From a virus: DNA of 42,512 nucleotides. Of this stretch, positions 1 through 42,512 are shown piece by piece. The position numbers and the translations under genes were made by a program. Below the pieces are notes generated by a model. It was not told the DNA's origin, made no database searches, and saw nothing but the letters and a program-made list of their open reading frames with translations. How positions within the stretch are numbered: position 1 is the stretch's first letter; each line of letters begins with the position of its first letter. The stretch covers positions 1-42,512 of IMG/VR virus record IMGVR_UViG_3300038701_001089; one strand, 5' to 3'.

Positions 1-126
1 TATCTTGCTTTGTGGATCCTGAATATATTTATACGTACATCTGATACCGTAATGTCATTATCAGATACAAACTGTATTTTGCCACCGTTGGCCTCCCATG
101 TGTCTAACGTATAAACTGTTGTCGTT
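1..126. repeat. Terminal overlap, left copy
   Basis: The first 126 bases recur exactly at 42386-42511. The repeat lies inside the coding sequence of the fibre-like gene, and joining base 42385 to base 1 completes that gene with a stop codon. This is best read as the overlap of a circular assembly rather than a biological terminal repeat. The unit genome is then 42385 bp. Confidence 0.9.
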
Positions 127-1397
127 TTGTTGTAAGCTTGGCTGTTCCCGTTACCCTTATCTACTTGGTATGTTGTTGGGTAAATAGCCCCTACAGCTCC
201 ACCGATGTTTATCCAATATTTAAACTCTGTAGCGGACGGACTATTTTGGGTTATTGTCCAGTCTAAGCTAATGTCGTATGCGTCCCCTTCCAAACCTATT
301 ATGGTGCTATCGGTTACGTTGTACAAGCTATCTATACCGCAAGGTAACTGCGAGTTCAATACAACCTCTCTATTTATTAGAATGGTCTGCGTATCGCCCG
401 CACCTATTGACCATGTACTCGTAGCATCGTAAATGCTTTCCCATCCTGTTATACAGTTAGGGTCTTGCCATGTGGCGTTGCCTGTGGCATCGCTTGTTAG
501 TACGTAGCCGTCTGCTTCAGTGCCGTCGGATATGAGCATCCCACCTGTGGTTGAGATAGCTATTTCATTAGGGGTAATATCAATTGTAGATATGTCAACA
601 CCATCACTTGATTTTAGGTTTACCTTATCTTTCCTTACATAAATATATTCTTCTGCACCCAACCCTTCGGTCGTATCAATTACAACTAAAGAAGCCTCTA
701 ACGCCTCTACATCTTCATTAAAGGTAACCCCACCATAACCCTTTATATTTGTTTGGGCTATATCAGTGCCTTTTATTACCATTCCTGAATTATACTCCCC
801 ACTTTCGTTCAAATACAGGTCTGATCCACTTATCAACTCTGATGTAACAAAATCGTCTATACTATCGTGGTATACATTTATTGAACCCACAACATGCAAA
901 GCCGCACTAGGGCTTGTAGTACCTATACCTACATTAGCAGTAGTATCAGTTAATATAACATCTAATGAGTCGTTACACGTCCACGGTAAACACCTGTCAA
1001 CAGCAACTACGTTGCTTGTATCTCTGTAGATCGTACCTGTATTGGTTACACCCGCGCTTGTAGGTTGCCTTTGCGTTACTGGATAGTTTATGTAATTGCT
1101 TGTTATACTGTCTATTGATATTGGAGCGGGAAAGTCCACAAACCCCTCAAAGCGTATCGTATCACCTGCTATAATAAGCGTATCGCCAAAAGCAAAGATA
1201 TAGCTTGTATCTGTACCGCTTACCATGCGATAACCCGCACCGCCCTCTGTATTGGCTATAGAGGTAACTACTACCGTGTCGTTCTCGTACGACCTATCGT
1301 ACGCACCGCCTACACTTAAAAACGTGGAGCTATCCACTACCTGTCCAAATGCCGTAAAGCTAACGGCTACCAATACTAATGTTATCAACTTTCTCAT
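1..1397 (-). CDS. Fibre-like virion protein with signal peptide
   Basis: A 465-codon frame opens with ATG at 1397, directly after the stop of the preceding gene (TAAATG). It stays open to base 1, and its TAA is completed by base 42385 across the circle junction, overlapping the next ATG (TAATG). The N-terminus is a classical Sec signal peptide of about 19 residues ending AFGQ, a cleavage context typical of Bacteroidota. Near residue 150 it carries NVGIGTTSPSAALHV, a motif common in tail-fibre and surface adhesin proteins of this phylum and its phages. The rest is Thr/Ser/Asp-rich and beta-strand-like. Its position after the terminase and before the tail genes suggests a fibre or adhesin that contacts the host. 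The signal peptide is odd for a virion protein, and an exported phage-encoded adhesin is the alternative. Confidence 0.75.
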   Translation of the reverse strand, partial: MRKLITLVLVAVSFTAFGQVVDSSTFLSVGGAYDRSYENDTVVVTSIANTEGGAGYRMVSGTDTSYIFAFGDTLIIAGDTIRFEGFVDFPAPISIDSITSNYINYPVTQRQPTSAGVTNTGTIYRDTSNVVAVDRCLPWTCNDSLDVILTDTTANVGIGTTSPSAALHVVGSINVYHDSIDDFVTSELISGSDLYLNESGEYNSGMVIKGTDIAQTNIKGYGGVTFNEDVEALEASLVVIDTTEGLGAEEYIYVRKDKVNLKSSDGVDISTIDITPNEIAISTTGGMLISDGTEADGYVLTSDATGNATWQDPNCITGWESIYDATSTWSIGAGDTQTILINREVVLNSQLPCGIDSLYNVTDSTIIGLEGDAYDISLDWTITQNSPSATEFKYWINIGGAVGAIYPTTYQVDKGNGNSQAYNKTTTVYTLDTWEANGGKIQFVSDNDITVSDVRINIFRIHKAR

Positions 1398-2019: not shown

Positions 2020-3279
2020 TATTTTTGGTAGTCTTGTATTGATAAATGTTCTGTGGTGTGTCCAGTCGTTATACCTCAGTGTGTCAAGCAGGTGCGTTAG
2101 CCTGCTATCGCCTGTTTTATCTATCTTGCCGTCTTTCATGCTTACAAGCCTACAATCCTCTATCAAGTACTCACAGCGCGGGTGTATCTTTCTGTTAGGG
2201 TAATGCTTTAATAGCACGTTAGACACGCCCCTACTGTCTTCTAACGATGGGTTTTTACGTGGCACACGTATAACTGGGTTCAGCTTGTTCTTTATTATCT
2301 GCCAGTCTGTTAACCTAGAACCCGATCGCCTTGCATTACCACTAGCATCGCCCGTGGCTATTATTTGCATATGACCGTACTTAGCTTGTATTAGGTCGCA
2401 TAATTCCTCTGTGTTTGAGTTGCTTATTCTGAACTCATCTAAGGTGTAGTAGTAGTCGTGCCCGAACTGATGCACACTAGCTGTCATCGGGTCTACGTTG
2501 AAGTCAAACGACACGTACAGCGGTTGGTTTGGCTTAAATTCGATAGTGTCATCTATCAAGCTTTCATCCCAGTTGAACATAAACGGGTTCTCTACTGAAG
2601 GTATACCCCACTCCCCTAAGAAGTACACGCGGTAAAAGTTCGGGTCTAGTTCGGCCTTTAGCTGCAATGCCGCGATGTCTTCATCAGTAAGCCACGCATT
2701 ATCTTTAAAGGTGGTTTCAACTATTGTTCTGTTTATGACCGTATTCCCGAACACTTTAGGCCATTCCCCATCAAAGAAAAAGCCTTTTACCCAACTGTTT
2801 ACATTGGTAGGGTTAAACGTTAGCATTATCTGCTTATAGTTAGGTAGCGTTCCCCTTATACGTGTGTCCAGCTGGTTAAAGTCTTCACGACTTAGCTCAG
2901 TTGCCTCTTCTATCCATGCACCAGTAGGTGAACTAATGGATTTTATTTTTTCTGGGTCATCAATACCTATGCAAATGATCTCATTGCCTGTATGGGTGTG
3001 TTTAATTGAGTGTAGCGTTTGGTTAAAGGTAAATTCGTTGCGTAAGCCCATTTCCTCAATGCGTGCCTTTAGCTCCTTCCATATCGAATTTTCGATCATT
3101 CGAGCTACCTTCCTAACACACAAAAAACGATGCCCTTGCTCGGACACCGTTCGTAGTATTATCTTTTGAGACGCGAATACGGATTTACCCGAACCAGCTG
3201 AACCCTTTAGTGCTAGATACCTATCTGTGTTATCTAGTAAAACTACATAGGTCTCATTTATGTGTACTTTGGCTTTCAA
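2005..3279 (-). CDS. terL: Terminase large subunit (DNA packaging ATPase/nuclease)
   Basis: 424 residues, the usual TerL length. The ATPase domain shows Walker A GSAGSGKS at residues 26-33 and a Walker B-like AWIEEA at 121-126. The C-terminal RNase H-like nuclease shows SFDFNVDP near 257, GDASG near 310 and DSRLTHLLDTLRY near 391-403, supplying the expected acidic metal ligands. TerL docks on the portal, drives DNA into the prohead and cuts the concatemer. The start appears to be TTG at 3279, which overlaps the HNH stop (TTGA), because no in-frame ATG precedes the Walker A motif at a sensible distance. It forms a packaging operon with the HNH and small terminase genes just upstream. Confidence 0.93.
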   Translation of the reverse strand: MKAKVHINETYVVLLDNTDRYLALKGSAGSGKSVFASQKIILRTVSEQGHRFLCVRKVARMIENSIWKELKARIEEMGLRNEFTFNQTLHSIKHTHTGNEIICIGIDDPEKIKSISSPTGAWIEEATELSREDFNQLDTRIRGTLPNYKQIMLTFNPTNVNSWVKGFFFDGEWPKVFGNTVINRTIVETTFKDNAWLTDEDIAALQLKAELDPNFYRVYFLGEWGIPSVENPFMFNWDESLIDDTIEFKPNQPLYVSFDFNVDPMTASVHQFGHDYYYTLDEFRISNSNTEELCDLIQAKYGHMQIIATGDASGNARRSGSRLTDWQIIKNKLNPVIRVPRKNPSLEDSRGVSNVLLKHYPNRKIHPRCEYLIEDCRLVSMKDGKIDKTGDSRLTHLLDTLRYNDWTHHRTFINTRLPKILSVV

Positions 3280-3980
3280 ATGTCTTTATCAATACTGTCC
3301 ATAAATTCCTGCACAACGTCAATAATAAACTGTTCGCGCTTGTCTTTTAATATCTTGTGAGCGACCTGTGATCGAGTGCCTAACCTCTCAGTGATACACT
3401 CCACGTCATCACTAACGACCTTTAGCGTCCTTCCAGTTGTTAACTGGACTTCAAACCAAATATGAGAGTCGTTTACCTTTACGTCACTTACCGCCTTTAC
3501 TTCGTGTGCCGTGAATTTGTGTGCTCCTACTTGCATTGTGTGTTTTTTTGGAAGTCTAACGTGTTTTGTTGATACATCAACTTTAGTCTTGGCTTTGTGA
3601 CATCCCTTACAAAGCCCTTGGTAATTCCACATACCCATTCCACCGCCACCCTTACATACGGGTATAATGTGATCAGCATCAACCCAATCATTATTGCATA
3701 ACTTACACTTTTGTCCCTGCGTTTTTCGTAGCTCATCCCTTATGTCAGACATGTACCCCTTAGCTATATAAAAAGCTTTACTTAAACTGCCCGAACATTC
3801 TTTACTTGCCCACTTTGTTCTGCGACCAGTTAGCTCCACACCACACCCACATGCACACTTGTTATCTACCACTTTATACTGAAAGTGGGAAGCCTTTACT
3901 TTCTTTTGTATACGGCTATAAGGCTCAATAACCCCCATAGAAAGCAACTCCGCGTACTTCTCTTTAGTGTACTCGATCAT
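3276..3980 (-). CDS. HNH endonuclease of the packaging module
   Basis: 234 residues. An N-terminal zinc-knuckle-like segment (CACGCG, residues 42-47, with another Cys near 62) is followed by a clear HNH core: CKLC at 92-95, DADHIIP at 101-107, an Asn near 119, and CKGCH at 124-128. HNH proteins encoded next to TerL are known in many tailed phages to assist terminase cleavage, and that role fits here because the gene sits between the two terminase subunits. The C-terminal 100 residues (Asp/Val-rich) are not recognised. ATG at 3980 lies two bases after the small terminase stop. A homing-type HNH is the alternative. Confidence 0.82.
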   Translation of the reverse strand: MIEYTKEKYAELLSMGVIEPYSRIQKKVKASHFQYKVVDNKCACGCGVELTGRRTKWASKECSGSLSKAFYIAKGYMSDIRDELRKTQGQKCKLCNNDWVDADHIIPVCKGGGGMGMWNYQGLCKGCHKAKTKVDVSTKHVRLPKKHTMQVGAHKFTAHEVKAVSDVKVNDSHIWFEVQLTTGRTLKVVSDDVECITERLGTRSQVAHKILKDKREQFIIDVVQEFMDSIDKDI

Positions 3981-10267: not shown

Positions 10268-10348
10268 AACTTAAAAAAGCCGATACCCGTCAAGATGTGA
10301 GGGTCTATCAGGGCTCGGCTTTCGATATTTTTAGATACGCCCCTCACA
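10268..10348 (-). terminator. Terminator-like element with interlocked inverted repeats
   Basis: Minus strand: AAAGCCGA (10322-10315) pairs with TCGGCTTT (10283-10276), and further T residues follow, as in an intrinsic terminator. A second pair, TGTGAGGG (10348-10341) with CCCTCACA (10303-10296), has one arm upstream of the hairpin and the other inside its loop, so the two stems interlock in pseudoknot order. The element ends about 16 bases before the ASCH start. It may end the DUF3127 transcript, attenuate ASCH expression, or both. Confidence 0.6.
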
Positions 10349-10406
10349 GCGTTACGTAAAAATACAACTTAGTTTTGAAACCGCCAAATTAAAATGGCAG
10401 GTCGTC

Positions 10407-10715
10407 TTAATACTCGTTACTATTTTCAATAGTAGCTGGCTTTGCGGTTTGTTCATTTGATAACTTCCACCCCGATAGTGTCGTAAAGTACTTATCGCTA
10501 GCTTCCCAATGCTTGCATCGAACGTTAGTATCTACTGTTACCTGTTGACCGACAGACACGCCTTCCAATAGCTTTACCTTGTCGTTAATGAACTCGATAC
10601 AGAAGATGTTAGTGTACTCTTTATCTTGTACCTCAATTATCAGCTCTTGCTTGCTGAATTTTTCAGACACCTGCTCGATGTCTTTGATCCTTGTTACTGT
10701 TCCTGTTAGTTTCAT
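10407..10715 (-). CDS. DUF3127 OB-fold ssDNA-binding-like protein, tip cut off by an ochre stop
   Basis: 102 residues with the DUF3127 pattern: MKLTGTVTRIKDIEQVSEKF, KQELIIEVQDKEYTNIFCIE, FINDKVKLLEGVSVGQQVTV and a Trp-containing last strand. This family in Bacteroidota is thought to bind single-stranded DNA, and members commonly end in an acidic tip such as DDLPF. Here the frame stops with TAA at 10409-10407, and the very next codons in frame are GAC GAC CTG CCA TTT TAA, that is DDLPF and a second ochre (ending at 10389). The tip is therefore encoded but separated by one stop codon. Nonsense mutation, readthrough or sequencing error are the options. ATG at 10715 overlaps the upstream stop (ATGA). 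Confidence 0.75.
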   Translation of the reverse strand: MKLTGTVTRIKDIEQVSEKFSKQELIIEVQDKEYTNIFCIEFINDKVKLLEGVSVGQQVTVDTNVRCKHWEASDKYFTTLSGWKLSNEQTAKPATIENSNEY

Positions 10716-11221
10716 TGCTTTGCTTTTTTGTGAAATGTTATAATTGTTGTGCCGTCAGGCTGCGGGTTCATTTTAATGTCAAAAATAGCTGTATCTATTA
10801 TCACCCCTTTACCTCGTGGTATCTGCGAACCATCCGAGAAATGTTGATATATACAAGCAGACCCACTGGCGAAAAAGGTATCAGCATTTGCAATTACAGT
10901 CAACGGCTGCGCCGCCTCTAATTCTGCTTTCTCTTTTAGCAGAGCGGCTACTTCTCGATCTATGTCCTCAATAGTGCGTTCGTTTATGATAGCCATTATT
11001 TCAGCGGCTGTTAGCACCTTGGGATTAACTTGGTAATATTTAGACGGCATACAAACAAAATAACCATACTCTACGCCATAAAAAAATTCACGAAGACTTC
11101 CGTCAAAGTCTCTGCCATTCTCTTTGATCCATTTAATATAGCTTTTAAATTCAGGGCTATCCTCCCACTTTACAGCGAAATTTTCGCCTACTACCGCTTG
11201 TACTTCTTTTAAATCTTTCAT
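10712..11221 (-). CDS. Hypothetical protein, 169 aa
   Basis: Soluble protein with an N-terminal helical part (EDSPEFKSYIKWIKENGRDF), a helical middle (DIDREVAALLKEKAELEAAQ) and a beta-rich C-terminus (DGTTIITFHKKAKQ). Not recognised. It overlaps the DUF3127 gene as ATGA, hinting at a DNA-metabolism context only. Confidence 0.55.
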   Translation of the reverse strand: MKDLKEVQAVVGENFAVKWEDSPEFKSYIKWIKENGRDFDGSLREFFYGVEYGYFVCMPSKYYQVNPKVLTAAEIMAIINERTIEDIDREVAALLKEKAELEAAQPLTVIANADTFFASGSACIYQHFSDGSQIPRGKGVIIDTAIFDIKMNPQPDGTTIITFHKKAKQ

Positions 11222-11885: not shown

Positions 11886-12551
11886 TTAATCAATTTTAGA
11901 TTGTGTTCCATATTGATCTTTTGGTGCGAATAAAGAACCTTGTGCTATGTGTTTCCTGAAGCGTTCAATAGCTGCGTTGTAATAGTCCGTGTCTAGTTCT
12001 GTCCATACGATGTCAAAGCCCATTTCATAGCATGCTATTAATATCGAGCCGCTACCCCCGTGCGTATCAAGTATCAGGTCACCTTCTTTAGCGTAGTTCT
12101 TTAGTAGCCATTTGTATAATGCTACGGGCTTTTGTGTGGGATGTATCTTGTCATTTGTTATATTGTTCATCGTAAACTTCCTTATCGCTCTATCAAAACT
12201 CGTCCATGCAAGCTCCCCGTCAGAGAACGACATACCAATAGGCGTGAGTTTGTCCCAAAAAATAACATGTTTCGTAGGAGGCAAGTTAAAGTAATTTCCG
12301 CCCCATATTATTCTATGTTTCGCAGATGCCTTTAGCATGTCAAAGAACTCATGATCAGGTGTGTACTTATCCCAAGACTTCTCCTTATGCCGCTTCCTTC
12401 TCCCCTTCGCTAGCCCCATATTTGAGTTGATATTTATCCCATACGGAGGGTCTACAATAGCAAGGTCAAAGTGCTTTTCAGGATAGCGGCTCATCACTTC
12501 CATACAGTCCTCATTAAAGACTTCTATTCGTGGGCTCTCACTTAGTAACAT
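11886..12551 (-). CDS. Beta-class DNA methyltransferase, copy A
   Basis: 221 residues from ATG at 12551. Catalytic motif IV DPPYG is at residues 34-38 and the AdoMet-binding motif I (LDTHGGSGS) is near the C-terminus: motif IV before motif I, with the recognition region between, defines the beta class of N6-adenine or N4-cytosine methyltransferases. No cognate restriction gene is visible, so self-protection against host restriction is likely. The first 38 and last 85 residues are almost the same as in the copy at 14786-15442, but the centre (residues about 40-135) is different and starts NINSNMGLAKGRRKRHKEK. An A-rich leader separates it from dnaB. Confidence 0.85.
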   Translation of the reverse strand: MLLSESPRIEVFNEDCMEVMSRYPEKHFDLAIVDPPYGININSNMGLAKGRRKRHKEKSWDKYTPDHEFFDMLKASAKHRIIWGGNYFNLPPTKHVIFWDKLTPIGMSFSDGELAWTSFDRAIRKFTMNNITNDKIHPTQKPVALYKWLLKNYAKEGDLILDTHGGSGSILIACYEMGFDIVWTELDTDYYNAAIERFRKHIAQGSLFAPKDQYGTQSKID

Positions 12552-12570
12552 AGTATTTTGTTTAGTGTGT

Positions 12571-13947
12571 TTAAAATGGTATATCCTCTTCAGGCAATTC
12601 AGCTCTAAATTTTGCAGGCTGCTCAAATGTATCTTGGTATGCATCTTCAAAGTCGCTCATGGTACTCGTTGCCCCGTCAAATTTTGCGCGTGTAGTCTCA
12701 AGTGAACCGCCTCGCGCCTTAGCTACGATAAACTCCACAAGTCCTTTTACGCTGTTATTGTTCTCGTCTACTTCAATGCCGTAATATTCAGGACGGTAAA
12801 TAAAAACTACGTTATCAGCATCTTGCTCTATTGCTCCACTCTCTCTTAAGTCGGATAGTATAGGCCGTTTATCACCGCCACGGGTCTCTACCGATCGGCT
12901 CAATTGCGATAAGGCTATTACGGGTATATCCAAGTCCTTAGCTAGCGTCTTACACCCTCTTGATATTGCTGATATTTGCTGCTCCCTGTTCCCTTCTTTG
13001 CCGCTCATTAACTGTAAGTAGTCCACTATTACCATATCAAGCTCGCCCTCAATATGCAAAGACTTTGCTTTGGCATGTATCCTATCAATTGTCATGCTTG
13101 CAGTGTCGTCAATTATCAAGTTATCCGTTGAGACCACATCGGTAATAGACTTCAATTCAGCGGATGTTAGGTCGCTTGGCTTCTTTAGCTTATTGTTATT
13201 TAGTTGAGCCTCGTGGCAGATCACCCGATTAGCTAACTCACTCTTTGACATCTCGAGCGAGAACAATAGAACCCGCTTACCTTGCTTTGCAGCGTGTAGC
13301 CCTGTCATTACCACAAAGGCTGTCTTTCCCATGCCTGGCCGACCTGCTACTACTGTTAGTTTACTACGTTGCCAGCCACCTAGGCATTTATCAAGCCCAT
13401 TAAAGCCAGTTGGAAGTCCTAATAACGCACCACCATTTTCTACCATTTCACAAATGGCTTTTTGCTCGTTCTCGACCGCTGTCTTTAGCGTTGTTCCTCT
13501 GCCATGCTTAATACTTGCATTGATGTTTATAACACCTGTACTTAGTTCATCTAATACCTCAAAGGCATCTTCACCGTCGTAAGCCTTAGATATTACGCCC
13601 ATACAAAGATCTATCGTTTGGCGTTTAATGGCATCTTGCTTGATAATGTAACTATGACTTTCAATATGCGCTGCACTTGCAACCCGTTCTGTTAGTTCGG
13701 ATATGTAAGAAACCCCTACCTGTGATAGCTTCCCTTTGTTTTTGAGCCACTTTGTTACCGTAAGCATATCTATGGGTGACCCCGACTTAGATAGCGCCTC
13801 AAACGCGCTAAAAATGGCTTTGTGTTTATTGTCGTAAAAGTCAGCTTCTGTTATTATCGAGCTAACAACAGCGTAAGCGTGTTTCTCTAGCATGATCGCA
13901 CCTAGTACCGCCTGTTCCGTTTCGTTGCTATGTGGTGCTACTTTCAT
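12571..13947 (-). CDS. dnaB: Replicative DNA helicase, DnaB family
   Basis: 458 residues, full family length. The N-terminal DnaB domain begins NETEQAVLGAIMLEK. The RecA-like motor has Walker A GRPGMGKT at 202-209, LFSLEMSK near 228, Walker B DMVIVDYLQLM at 304-314, ALSQLSRSVETR near 345, and DLRESGAIEQDADNV. It unwinds the fork ahead of the host polymerase. ATG at 13947 overlaps the stop of the DUF1376 gene (ATGA), the usual loader-helicase pairing. The last residues are LPEEDIPF, which closely resemble an SSB acidic tip and may recruit the same partners. Confidence 0.95.
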   Translation of the reverse strand: MKVAPHSNETEQAVLGAIMLEKHAYAVVSSIITEADFYDNKHKAIFSAFEALSKSGSPIDMLTVTKWLKNKGKLSQVGVSYISELTERVASAAHIESHSYIIKQDAIKRQTIDLCMGVISKAYDGEDAFEVLDELSTGVININASIKHGRGTTLKTAVENEQKAICEMVENGGALLGLPTGFNGLDKCLGGWQRSKLTVVAGRPGMGKTAFVVMTGLHAAKQGKRVLLFSLEMSKSELANRVICHEAQLNNNKLKKPSDLTSAELKSITDVVSTDNLIIDDTASMTIDRIHAKAKSLHIEGELDMVIVDYLQLMSGKEGNREQQISAISRGCKTLAKDLDIPVIALSQLSRSVETRGGDKRPILSDLRESGAIEQDADNVVFIYRPEYYGIEVDENNNSVKGLVEFIVAKARGGSLETTRAKFDGATSTMSDFEDAYQDTFEQPAKFRAELPEEDIPF

Positions 13948-14785: not shown

Positions 14786-15442
14786 TTACTCTATCTCTTT
14801 TTGTGTTCCGTATTGATCTTTTGGTGCGAATAACGAACCTTGTGCTATGTGTTTTCTGAACCGTTCAATAGCTGCGTTGTAATAGTCCGTGTCTAGTTCC
14901 GTCCATACGATGTCAAAGCCCATTTCATAGCATGCTATTAATATCGAGCCGCTACCCCCGTGCGTATCAAGTATCAAGTCGCCTTCTTTAGCGTAGTTCT
15001 TTAGTAGCCATTTGTATAATGCTACTGGCTTTTGTGTTGGGTGTATTTTATTAGTTTCAGCAGTTACAACGTGCTTTTGAAATATCTTTGCTGGCATCTG
15101 AATACTTATCCATGCCATTTCGCACATTGCAGAACTGAAATTAAATGGCTGTTTTTTATCCCAAACAATAAACCCTTGGCTTTGCGGCAATTGGAAGTAA
15201 TTACCCCCCCAGATTATTTGTTCGTTTGACTTATTAAATAGAAGTTGGAAATATAAATTATTTGGCACTTCACTGTCCCACCCCTTTTTAACTTGCTTGC
15301 CTCTAAATGAATTAGCCGACAATCCTATCCCATACGGAGGGTCTACAATAGCAAGATCAAAGTGATTTTCAGGATAGCGGCTCATTACGTCCATACAATC
15401 CTCGTTAAACACTTCTATCCGTGGGCTTTCACTTAGTAACAT
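14786..15442 (-). CDS. Beta-class DNA methyltransferase, copy B
   Basis: 218 residues from ATG at 15442, inside the end of the preceding gene. DPPYG is at residues 34-38, the AdoMet motif LDTHGGSGS lies near residue 166, and KIHPTQKPVALYKWLLKNYA precedes it, as in copy A. DNA of the C-terminal third (14811-15050 against 11911-12150) is nearly identical between copies and the N-terminal 110 bases are close, whereas the centre, expected to hold the target-recognition region, has diverged (GLSANSFRGKQVKKGW and onward). The two enzymes probably methylate different sites. The last gene of its unit, followed by the shared-motif hairpin and the terminator-like element. Confidence 0.85.
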   Translation of the reverse strand: MLLSESPRIEVFNEDCMDVMSRYPENHFDLAIVDPPYGIGLSANSFRGKQVKKGWDSEVPNNLYFQLLFNKSNEQIIWGGNYFQLPQSQGFIVWDKKQPFNFSSAMCEMAWISIQMPAKIFQKHVVTAETNKIHPTQKPVALYKWLLKNYAKEGDLILDTHGGSGSILIACYEMGFDIVWTELDTDYYNAAIERFRKHIAQGSLFAPKDQYGTQKEIE

Positions 15443-15938
15443 CGTATTTGCTTTTTCGTTTCTCAAATACACCCTTGTACGTTGGGTGGTTTTTCTCAAA
15501 CATCCGCGCTAAGCACGGGCTAACATGGTCGTTTACTTTATAGCCGCCGCCCTGCGTTAGGCTGGTCTCCATGCGTATTTTCCACACTATGAACCTAGCA
15601 GATAAGAACAGATTTTGACGTGTTCCAGACTTTACTTGTGACTGCTGTTTGTTAAGCACACGTAATGACATGCGTTCAAACTCTTCGCGTATCGGGCGCG
15701 GTATCTTGTTGTAGTCTCTCGCTAACATCCCGTCCGTGTCAATGTAGTCGTTGAAGTTATCGTAAATAACCCCCCATTTACTAGCACCACCATTCATCGC
15801 CCAATTGAAAGCCCGAATTAAAGCCTTATCTCCAGTACTTGTGATCTCGTTATTGTTCCCACTTTTCTTAAAAGCTTCTAAAGCTTCGGTGCGGTACGGC
15901 TCTTTTAGCATGTCGAGCCACTCTGTGATACTTTTCAT
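15429..15938 (-). CDS. Hypothetical protein, 169 aa
   Basis: Soluble basic protein. Segments such as EWLDMLKEPYRTEALEAFKK and ALIRAFNWAMNGG suggest a helical fold. The same general plan (short helical start, FNWAMNGGASKWGVIYDNF) occurs in phage proteins near replication genes, but I assign no function. It starts at 15938, overlapping the stop of the DnaA-like gene (ATGA), and ends inside the methyltransferase start. Confidence 0.6.
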   Translation of the reverse strand: MKSITEWLDMLKEPYRTEALEAFKKSGNNNEITSTGDKALIRAFNWAMNGGASKWGVIYDNFNDYIDTDGMLARDYNKIPRPIREEFERMSLRVLNKQQSQVKSGTRQNLFLSARFIVWKIRMETSLTQGGGYKVNDHVSPCLARMFEKNHPTYKGVFEKRKSKYDVTK

Positions 15939-17937: not shown

Positions 17938-18038
17938 TCTAACATGTATAAAAGGTTAACTAATTCGGTTTGCTCTGTCTGTGGCTCGTTAGCTTGCTTT
18001 TCGGCTAATTCCAACGCCTTATCTCTGTTACTTAGCAT
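17931..18038 (-). CDS. Small protein, 35 aa
   Basis: ATG at 18038, 11 bases inside the end of the ERF gene, and a stop overlapping the next ATG (ATGGTAG). A single amphipathic helix with many Glu/Gln residues (RDKALELAEKQANEPQTEQT). Overlaps at both ends suggest translational coupling. Confidence 0.45.
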   Translation of the reverse strand: MLSNRDKALELAEKQANEPQTEQTELVNLLYMLEW

Positions 18039-18606
18039 TAAACTGTTGTTTGTAAGCGTTAACAAATCGAGTACTTCTCTTTACATTATCGGGTAACGAG
18101 TTCGCATAAGCCTTAGCGCCATCCGATTCAACATCCATTAACCCAGCTATGGCGTTATCGATAGCGGTATCTAGTTTCGATTGTACCGTGTGGCTTTCGC
18201 TGTCTGCATCAATTTGCCCTTCGTAAGGTATTGTAAAGACTTGCGTCAGTGCGTACTTGTGAGCCGCTGCCATTGCCTTATTGGTGGACTTATCGCCGCT
18301 ATCCATGCCTTCACCTTCACAGATGCAAGATATAGTGCTGCCGTCCTTTGCGTAAAAAGCAAACTCAACCCTTAGCATCGTGTAAATAAGTGCCGACCCC
18401 TTAGATGTTACTCGGTCTTCTCGTCTAGCTTCCAAGACCCATGGCATTGTTACGACTTCGTGCTTAGCTAGTAACGGGTGTAATGCGTTGTAAACGTCAT
18501 CAACACCACGGAAGTTATACCGCTGACCTTGGTTGGTTTGGTTTTTTGCGATCGGGTCTATCTCTTTTTGGATAGCTGCCAATTTCTCAAATATCAGTGT
18601 GCTCAT
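18028..18606 (-). CDS. ERF-family ssDNA annealing protein
   Basis: 192 residues with the ERF pattern: LAAIQKEIDPIAKNQTNQGQ, then YNFRGVDDVYNALHPLLAKH, and GEGMDSGDKSTNKAMAAAHK followed by YALTQVF. ERF proteins pair complementary single strands and support phage recombination and circularisation. The C-terminal region is more variable, as usual. ATG at 18606 is separated by one base from the repeat-protein gene upstream. It defines the recombination part of the early region. Confidence 0.9.
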   Translation of the reverse strand: MSTLIFEKLAAIQKEIDPIAKNQTNQGQRYNFRGVDDVYNALHPLLAKHEVVTMPWVLEARREDRVTSKGSALIYTMLRVEFAFYAKDGSTISCICEGEGMDSGDKSTNKAMAAAHKYALTQVFTIPYEGQIDADSESHTVQSKLDTAIDNAIAGLMDVESDGAKAYANSLPDNVKRSTRFVNAYKQQFNAK

Positions 18607-42385: not shown

Positions 42386-42512
42386 TATCTTGCTTTGTGG
42401 ATCCTGAATATATTTATACGTACATCTGATACCGTAATGTCATTATCAGATACAAACTGTATTTTGCCACCGTTGGCCTCCCATGTGTCTAACGTATAAA
42501 CTGTTGTCGTTC
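42386..42512. repeat. Terminal overlap, right copy
   Basis: Bases 42386-42511 are identical to 1-126. The next and last base (42512, C) differs from base 127 (T). It encodes the last 42 codons of the fibre-like gene on the minus strand, so it is a second copy of the left end and not a separate gene. Confidence 0.9.

Follow-up and report, generated by a model that had tools for sequence, protein, structure and literature searches.

An in-frame ochre codon directly before the DDLPF tip of a phage DUF3127 gene: a probable nonsense allele of a single-strand DNA-binding protein

The closest described proteins and the phage gene

Through its last nine residues the Escherichia coli single-strand DNA-binding protein (SSB) recruits more than 17 partners (PMC7913777). 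In vivo, the SSB of phage HK620 stimulated its cognate annealing protein 10-fold less when its last six residues were removed (PMC5928155). Protection of ssDNA is retained by pneumococcal SsbB after truncation of its tip (PMC3128108). The E. coli and HK620 proteins are composed of an OB fold, a disordered tail and an acidic, PF-ended tip (MDFDDDIPF and NDYPPF, respectively), and both tips bind partners (PMC7913777, PMC5928155). The phage gene described here encodes the same succession of elements, but it belongs to a different sequence family and its tip is untranslated unless a stop codon is read through. Nearer to it are the DUF3127 proteins of Bacteroidota phages (Flavobacterium phages hemulen6-1, Fpv5 and FL-1, Cellulophaga phage phi13:2 and Tenacibaculum phage Gundel_1), which have the same domain, a similar length, a variable linker and a DDLPF-type tip in frame. 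None of these relatives examined has a TAA between the linker and the tip; in this respect the gene described here differs from them.

The gene is located on IMGVR_UViG_3300038701_001089, an uncultivated virus contig in IMG/VR, of which positions 1-42,512 were analysed (referred to as the window). It occupies 10407-10715 on the minus strand and consists of 102 codons (10410-10715) followed by TAA. Read on the minus strand its end is ...AAC GAG TAT TAA GAC GAC CTG CCA TTT TAA. Thus the encoded protein of 102 aa has the C-terminus ...PATIENSNEY, the open reading frame is closed by an in-frame ochre codon (10407-10409, minus strand), and the frame then continues with DDLPF (10392-10406, minus strand) and a second TAA (10389-10391, minus strand). 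Besides the codon at 10407-10409 the gene has no in-frame stop of any kind before the tip. An earlier note on this DNA had drawn attention to the arrangement at 10389-10415 and had considered a five-residue match in frame very unlikely to arise by chance. The arrangement is exactly as it had been described, and a dinucleotide model of the window gives a probability of 5e-9 for DDLPF-stop directly after a given TAA, or 2e-7 for the looser pattern [DEN][DEN][LIVM]PF-stop. The sequence behind the TAA is therefore not a chance match. In the whole window stop-DD[L/I/M/F]PF-stop occurs only once, and in 100 shuffles it did not occur at all.

The assignment of the gene to DUF3127 and to proteins of the ssDNA-binding type, which also goes back to the earlier note, held as well. 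The product matches Pfam PF11325 (DUF3127) with an E-value of 4.5e-20 (score 72.1 bits, gathering cut-off 27) and phrog_4932, annotated as 'single strand DNA binding protein', with an E-value of 1e-21. An AlphaFold model built from 36 aligned homologues (mean pLDDT 87.2) shows five strands and one helix. Foldseek related the model to PriB (1woc) and several SSBs with a probability of 1.00 and TM scores of about 0.6-0.7; PriB and many bacterial SSBs were its best matches among solved structures. An OB fold like that of SSB and PriB is predicted on these grounds. Solved structures were matched weakly by sequence profile (SSB, E 0.43), so that the fold assignment rests on the comparison of the model. 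Residues 90-102 have a pLDDT below 50. Since this low-confidence tail begins before the stop, the DNA-binding domain should be untouched: in the model the OB domain (approximately residues 1-87) is whole and the stop falls within a disordered tail.

The C-terminal tip in homologues and the search for a second case

That DDLPF is the tip with which these proteins usually end was borne out by a survey of homologues. The 185 homologue loci from IMG/VR were grouped into 96 clusters at 90% identity. A strict pattern detected a canonical tip in 75 of the clusters, and by eye an acidic, aromatic-ended tip was recognised in approximately 84. All 12 phage relatives from databases possessed a tip (DDLPF, NDLPF, GLPF, DDVPF or similar), the weakest being DPLF in P12024S (L010). 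As about 84 of 96 clusters end in this way, the pentapeptide downstream of the stop appears to be the ancestral tip of the gene. The TAA at 10389-10391 is most likely the ancestral stop codon. With the stop read through, the protein would extend 25 residues past the conserved tryptophan; in tipped homologues this stretch mainly measures 20 to 45 residues. An acidic, aromatic-ended tip, which is usual but not universal in DUF3127, is thus absent from the window protein as translated and encoded beyond the TAA.

About 12 of the 96 clusters consist of short forms that lack both a clear tip and a long linker. It follows that loss of the tip seems to be tolerable in the DUF3127 family, yet rare. 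These natural short forms end approximately 3-13 residues past a conserved GW; the window gene ends 19 residues past it. Behind those short tipless homologues that were checked no tip remnant was found in any frame. Tipless and nearly linkerless proteins, ending about 3-9 residues past GW, are encoded by L023, L046, L071, L167, L190 and L205, and in such lineages the tip appears to have been lost cleanly. The survey provides a tip census for the DUF3127 viral SSBs, in which the tip is common and missing from roughly one cluster in eight.

A stop followed by an in-frame tip was seen in none of the 185 DUF3127 homologue loci from IMG/VR. The collections were also scanned for D-D-[LIMF]-P-F-TAA preceded by a stop codon, which was TAA throughout and additionally TGA in IMG/VR. 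Three stretches matched in IMG/VR, and in 84,980 genomes, scanned with TAA, there were 31 matches; neither collection yielded a second standard-code DUF3127 gene with a stop before the tip. Taken together, the homologue loci and the scans suggest that the arrangement is isolated to the window gene in the collections searched. Single-protein queries with DUF3127, DnaB and terminase found no close relative, and no relative above approximately 42% identity was found; this absence of close kin applies to the collections searched, which may omit near-identical records by design. No match in IMG/VR was obtained with the terminal 36-mer when the codon at the stop was left free. All relatives examined therefore lack stop-then-tip, the closest of them being only about 42% identical.

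One of the IMG/VR matches could have been taken for a second truncation. L249 (IMGVR_UViG_3300033146_004341) contains a DUF3127 gene at 104-424 (Pfam E 1e-17) in which, much as in the window, a stop-like codon immediately precedes an in-frame DDFPF and a final TAA closes the frame. This candidate was rejected, since the gene has six in-frame TGAs which are read as glycine under code 25, and the last of them, directly before DDFPF, gives SDGDDFPF. Judged by its codons, L249 is a UGA-recoded phage (SR1/Gracilibacteria-type code) carrying a DUF3127 SSB. Its TGA encodes glycine at six sites, whereas the TAA of the window is a genuine stop, and L249 thus represents a clean contrast case in which the same pattern comes from genetic recoding and not from truncation. 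Another match, L250 (IMGVR_UViG_3300028832_003198, approximately 11194-11214, minus strand), has several in-frame TGAs and the end LPFD-TGA-DDLPF-TAA; this frame, too, is probably UGA-recoded, with a doubled tip-like end. The third match was discarded, as its upstream frame has just 7 codons. Among the 31 genome matches 29 had short or unrelated upstream frames and were attributed to chance. In the other two, L224 (approximately 3250-3295, a Bacillota MAG) and L239 (approximately 1285-1330, a Desulfosporosinus MAG), the SSB-like frame ahead already ends in DDDIPF, and the sequence reads ...DDDIPF-TAA followed by an in-frame DDIPF-TAA. They were not counted as truncations and look like near-perfect tandem duplications of the tip beyond the stop.

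Origin of the stop codon

The earlier note had not considered that TAA might encode an amino acid in this phage, as TGA does in the look-alike L249, where it stands for glycine six times, including right before DDFPF. Such a reassignment is effectively refuted. Among 57 gene-like open reading frames of the window 29 end with TAA, 24 with TGA and 4 with TAG, which shows that TAA is a genuine stop here; no in-frame TAA lies inside the long genes of the window, and its DUF3127 gene contains no further in-frame stop, against six in the recoded gene. Programmed or suppressor-assisted readthrough would leave most SSB molecules tipless and a small tip-bearing fraction that regulates partner recruitment. 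The frame, the tip and the second stop are perfectly kept past the TAA, as this would demand, and the base after the stop is G, which gives UAAG where UAAU would be the tightest context (PMC5289835). On the other hand UAA is the stop codon least prone to readthrough in bacteria (PMC5289835), and the local fold is merely mildly stable (z = -1.9). No tRNA gene was found in the phage and no Rfam element near the stop. More generally, no leaky stop, stimulatory context or suppressor tRNA was detected among the phage genes and by Rfam. Conservation of stop and extension across relatives, the hallmark of programmed readthrough, was seen in 0 of 185 loci and nowhere in the collection scans. Readthrough conserved in a lineage should appear in homologues and did not, which makes it quite improbable here. 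The more specific idea that low-level ochre readthrough supplies two SSB forms, the minor tipped one setting the number of partners recruited per SSB oligomer, is if anything slightly less probable still.

A better explanation may be that an ordinary phage DUF3127 SSB gene recently acquired one nonsense substitution, in the codon that directly precedes its tip, and this we consider probable. Conserved coding sequence, namely DDLPF and its stop, continues in frame beyond the premature stop, as in a nonsense allele, and since neither shows decay we infer that the event was recent or that the base is an error. Against this reading, the closest relatives, at about 42% identity, are too distant to show the sense codon at the site directly or to date the event. 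Moreover, DUF3127 proteins rarely lose the tip, so that relaxed constraint or a hitchhiking variant would be needed for a nonsense allele to appear in a consensus genome. Alternatively, the base is a consensus error or a minority variant called in the metagenome assembly, and the real population has a sense codon there and a protein with the normal tip. Most DUF3127 relatives do retain theirs. The contig comes from an uncultivated virus, and directly after the 126 bases shared by its two ends there is a conflict at one base (T at 127, C at 42512). The assembly thus contains at least one single-base conflict where it covers a sequence twice, which may reflect a mixture of strains. Yet base errors are rare in short-read consensus sequences, the one codon preceding the tip is a small target, and the assembly seems otherwise clean, as the long genes are uninterrupted; we regard such an error as unlikely, although it clearly deserves more weight than the remaining alternatives. 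One of these is that loss of the tip was selected, for example because it ends the recruitment of host partners or yields a pure ssDNA-coating protein. Tipless forms do persist in about 12 of 96 clusters without clear tip and long linker, and the truncated pneumococcal SsbB still protects ssDNA (PMC3128108). However, homologues that are naturally short stop about 3-13 residues past GW without any remnant, and here the gene ends 19 residues past GW with an intact one; furthermore, the 10-fold lower stimulation of recombineering by the HK620 SSB lacking six residues (PMC5928155) leads one to expect a cost. Adaptive removal is accordingly improbable. Of the three origins proposed in the earlier note the nonsense mutation is thus preferred, regulated readthrough has lost ground for want of a homologue, a suppressor tRNA or a known signal and because TAA is the tightest stop, and a sequencing error keeps a lower but appreciable probability. 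Between a real nonsense allele and a base error we favour the former.

If the stop is a real nonsense allele, translation would end at 10407-10409, and the TAA at 10389-10391 would be the original stop. The product would retain the OB-fold domain (approximately residues 1-87) and the disordered linker without the partner-recruiting DDLPF tip. By analogy with the truncated SSBs it should still coat ssDNA but be a poor recruiter of partners, and partner recruitment would either pass to the host SSB, which could supply tips, or be lost. The phage would then tolerate the loss or suffer slightly from it. A plausible tip-dependent partner affected by the change is the Erf-like ssDNA annealing protein encoded at 18028-18606 on the minus strand (phrog_155, E 2.2e-29), by analogy with Sak4 of HK620. 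The kind of lesion is shared with pneumococcal SsbB-delta7 and HK620 SSB-delta6, in which the OB domain is kept and the last residues are gone. Those were engineered, whereas the nonsense allele in the window is of natural (or artefactual) origin and its tip is still encoded downstream. If real, it would be a natural phage counterpart of the laboratory tip-deletion SSBs and would bear on whether a phage can survive when the only SSB recognised in it lacks the tip that recruits partners. In either case the gene looks like an isolated truncated allele of a known family, or like a base error, and not like a new mechanism.

Genome context

The window is a tailed phage with genes for terminase, portal, DnaB, a primosomal-protein-like product, the Erf-like annealing protein, endolysin and others, nearly all of them on the minus strand. 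Its long genes for terminase, DnaB, portal and tape measure show no interruptions. Bases 1-126 recur exactly at the end of the window (1-127 compared with 42386-42512), and the adjoining base is the one that conflicts between the copies. A terminal repeat of 126 bases followed by a one-base mismatch indicates that the genome is probably complete; the conflict itself is probably a branch of the assembly graph at that place.

Past the tip of the DUF3127 gene, at a distance of about 70-115 nt, RNA folding revealed a GC-rich hairpin with a run of T behind it (10274-10322, minus strand). This is a probable transcription terminator, a reading based on the fold because the loop is too long for a simple terminator scanner.

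The DnaB-like replicative helicase (12571-13947, minus strand; Pfam E 2.8e-86) carries an SSB-tip-like C-terminus of its own, ...LPEEDIPF. Four DnaB homologues were inspected: that of L246 ends in DGPLPF, and the remaining three have no such end. On either side of the DnaB and primosomal genes there are two DNA methyltransferase genes (11886-12650 and 14786-15499). Their N- and C-terminal parts are almost identical and the middle is divergent, which suggests that the target-recognition part may have been exchanged. Finally, a conserved leader, AACACACTAAA(C/T), is found immediately upstream of three ATG starts on the minus strand (9963, 11886 and 12570); it may serve all three in ribosome binding or regulation.
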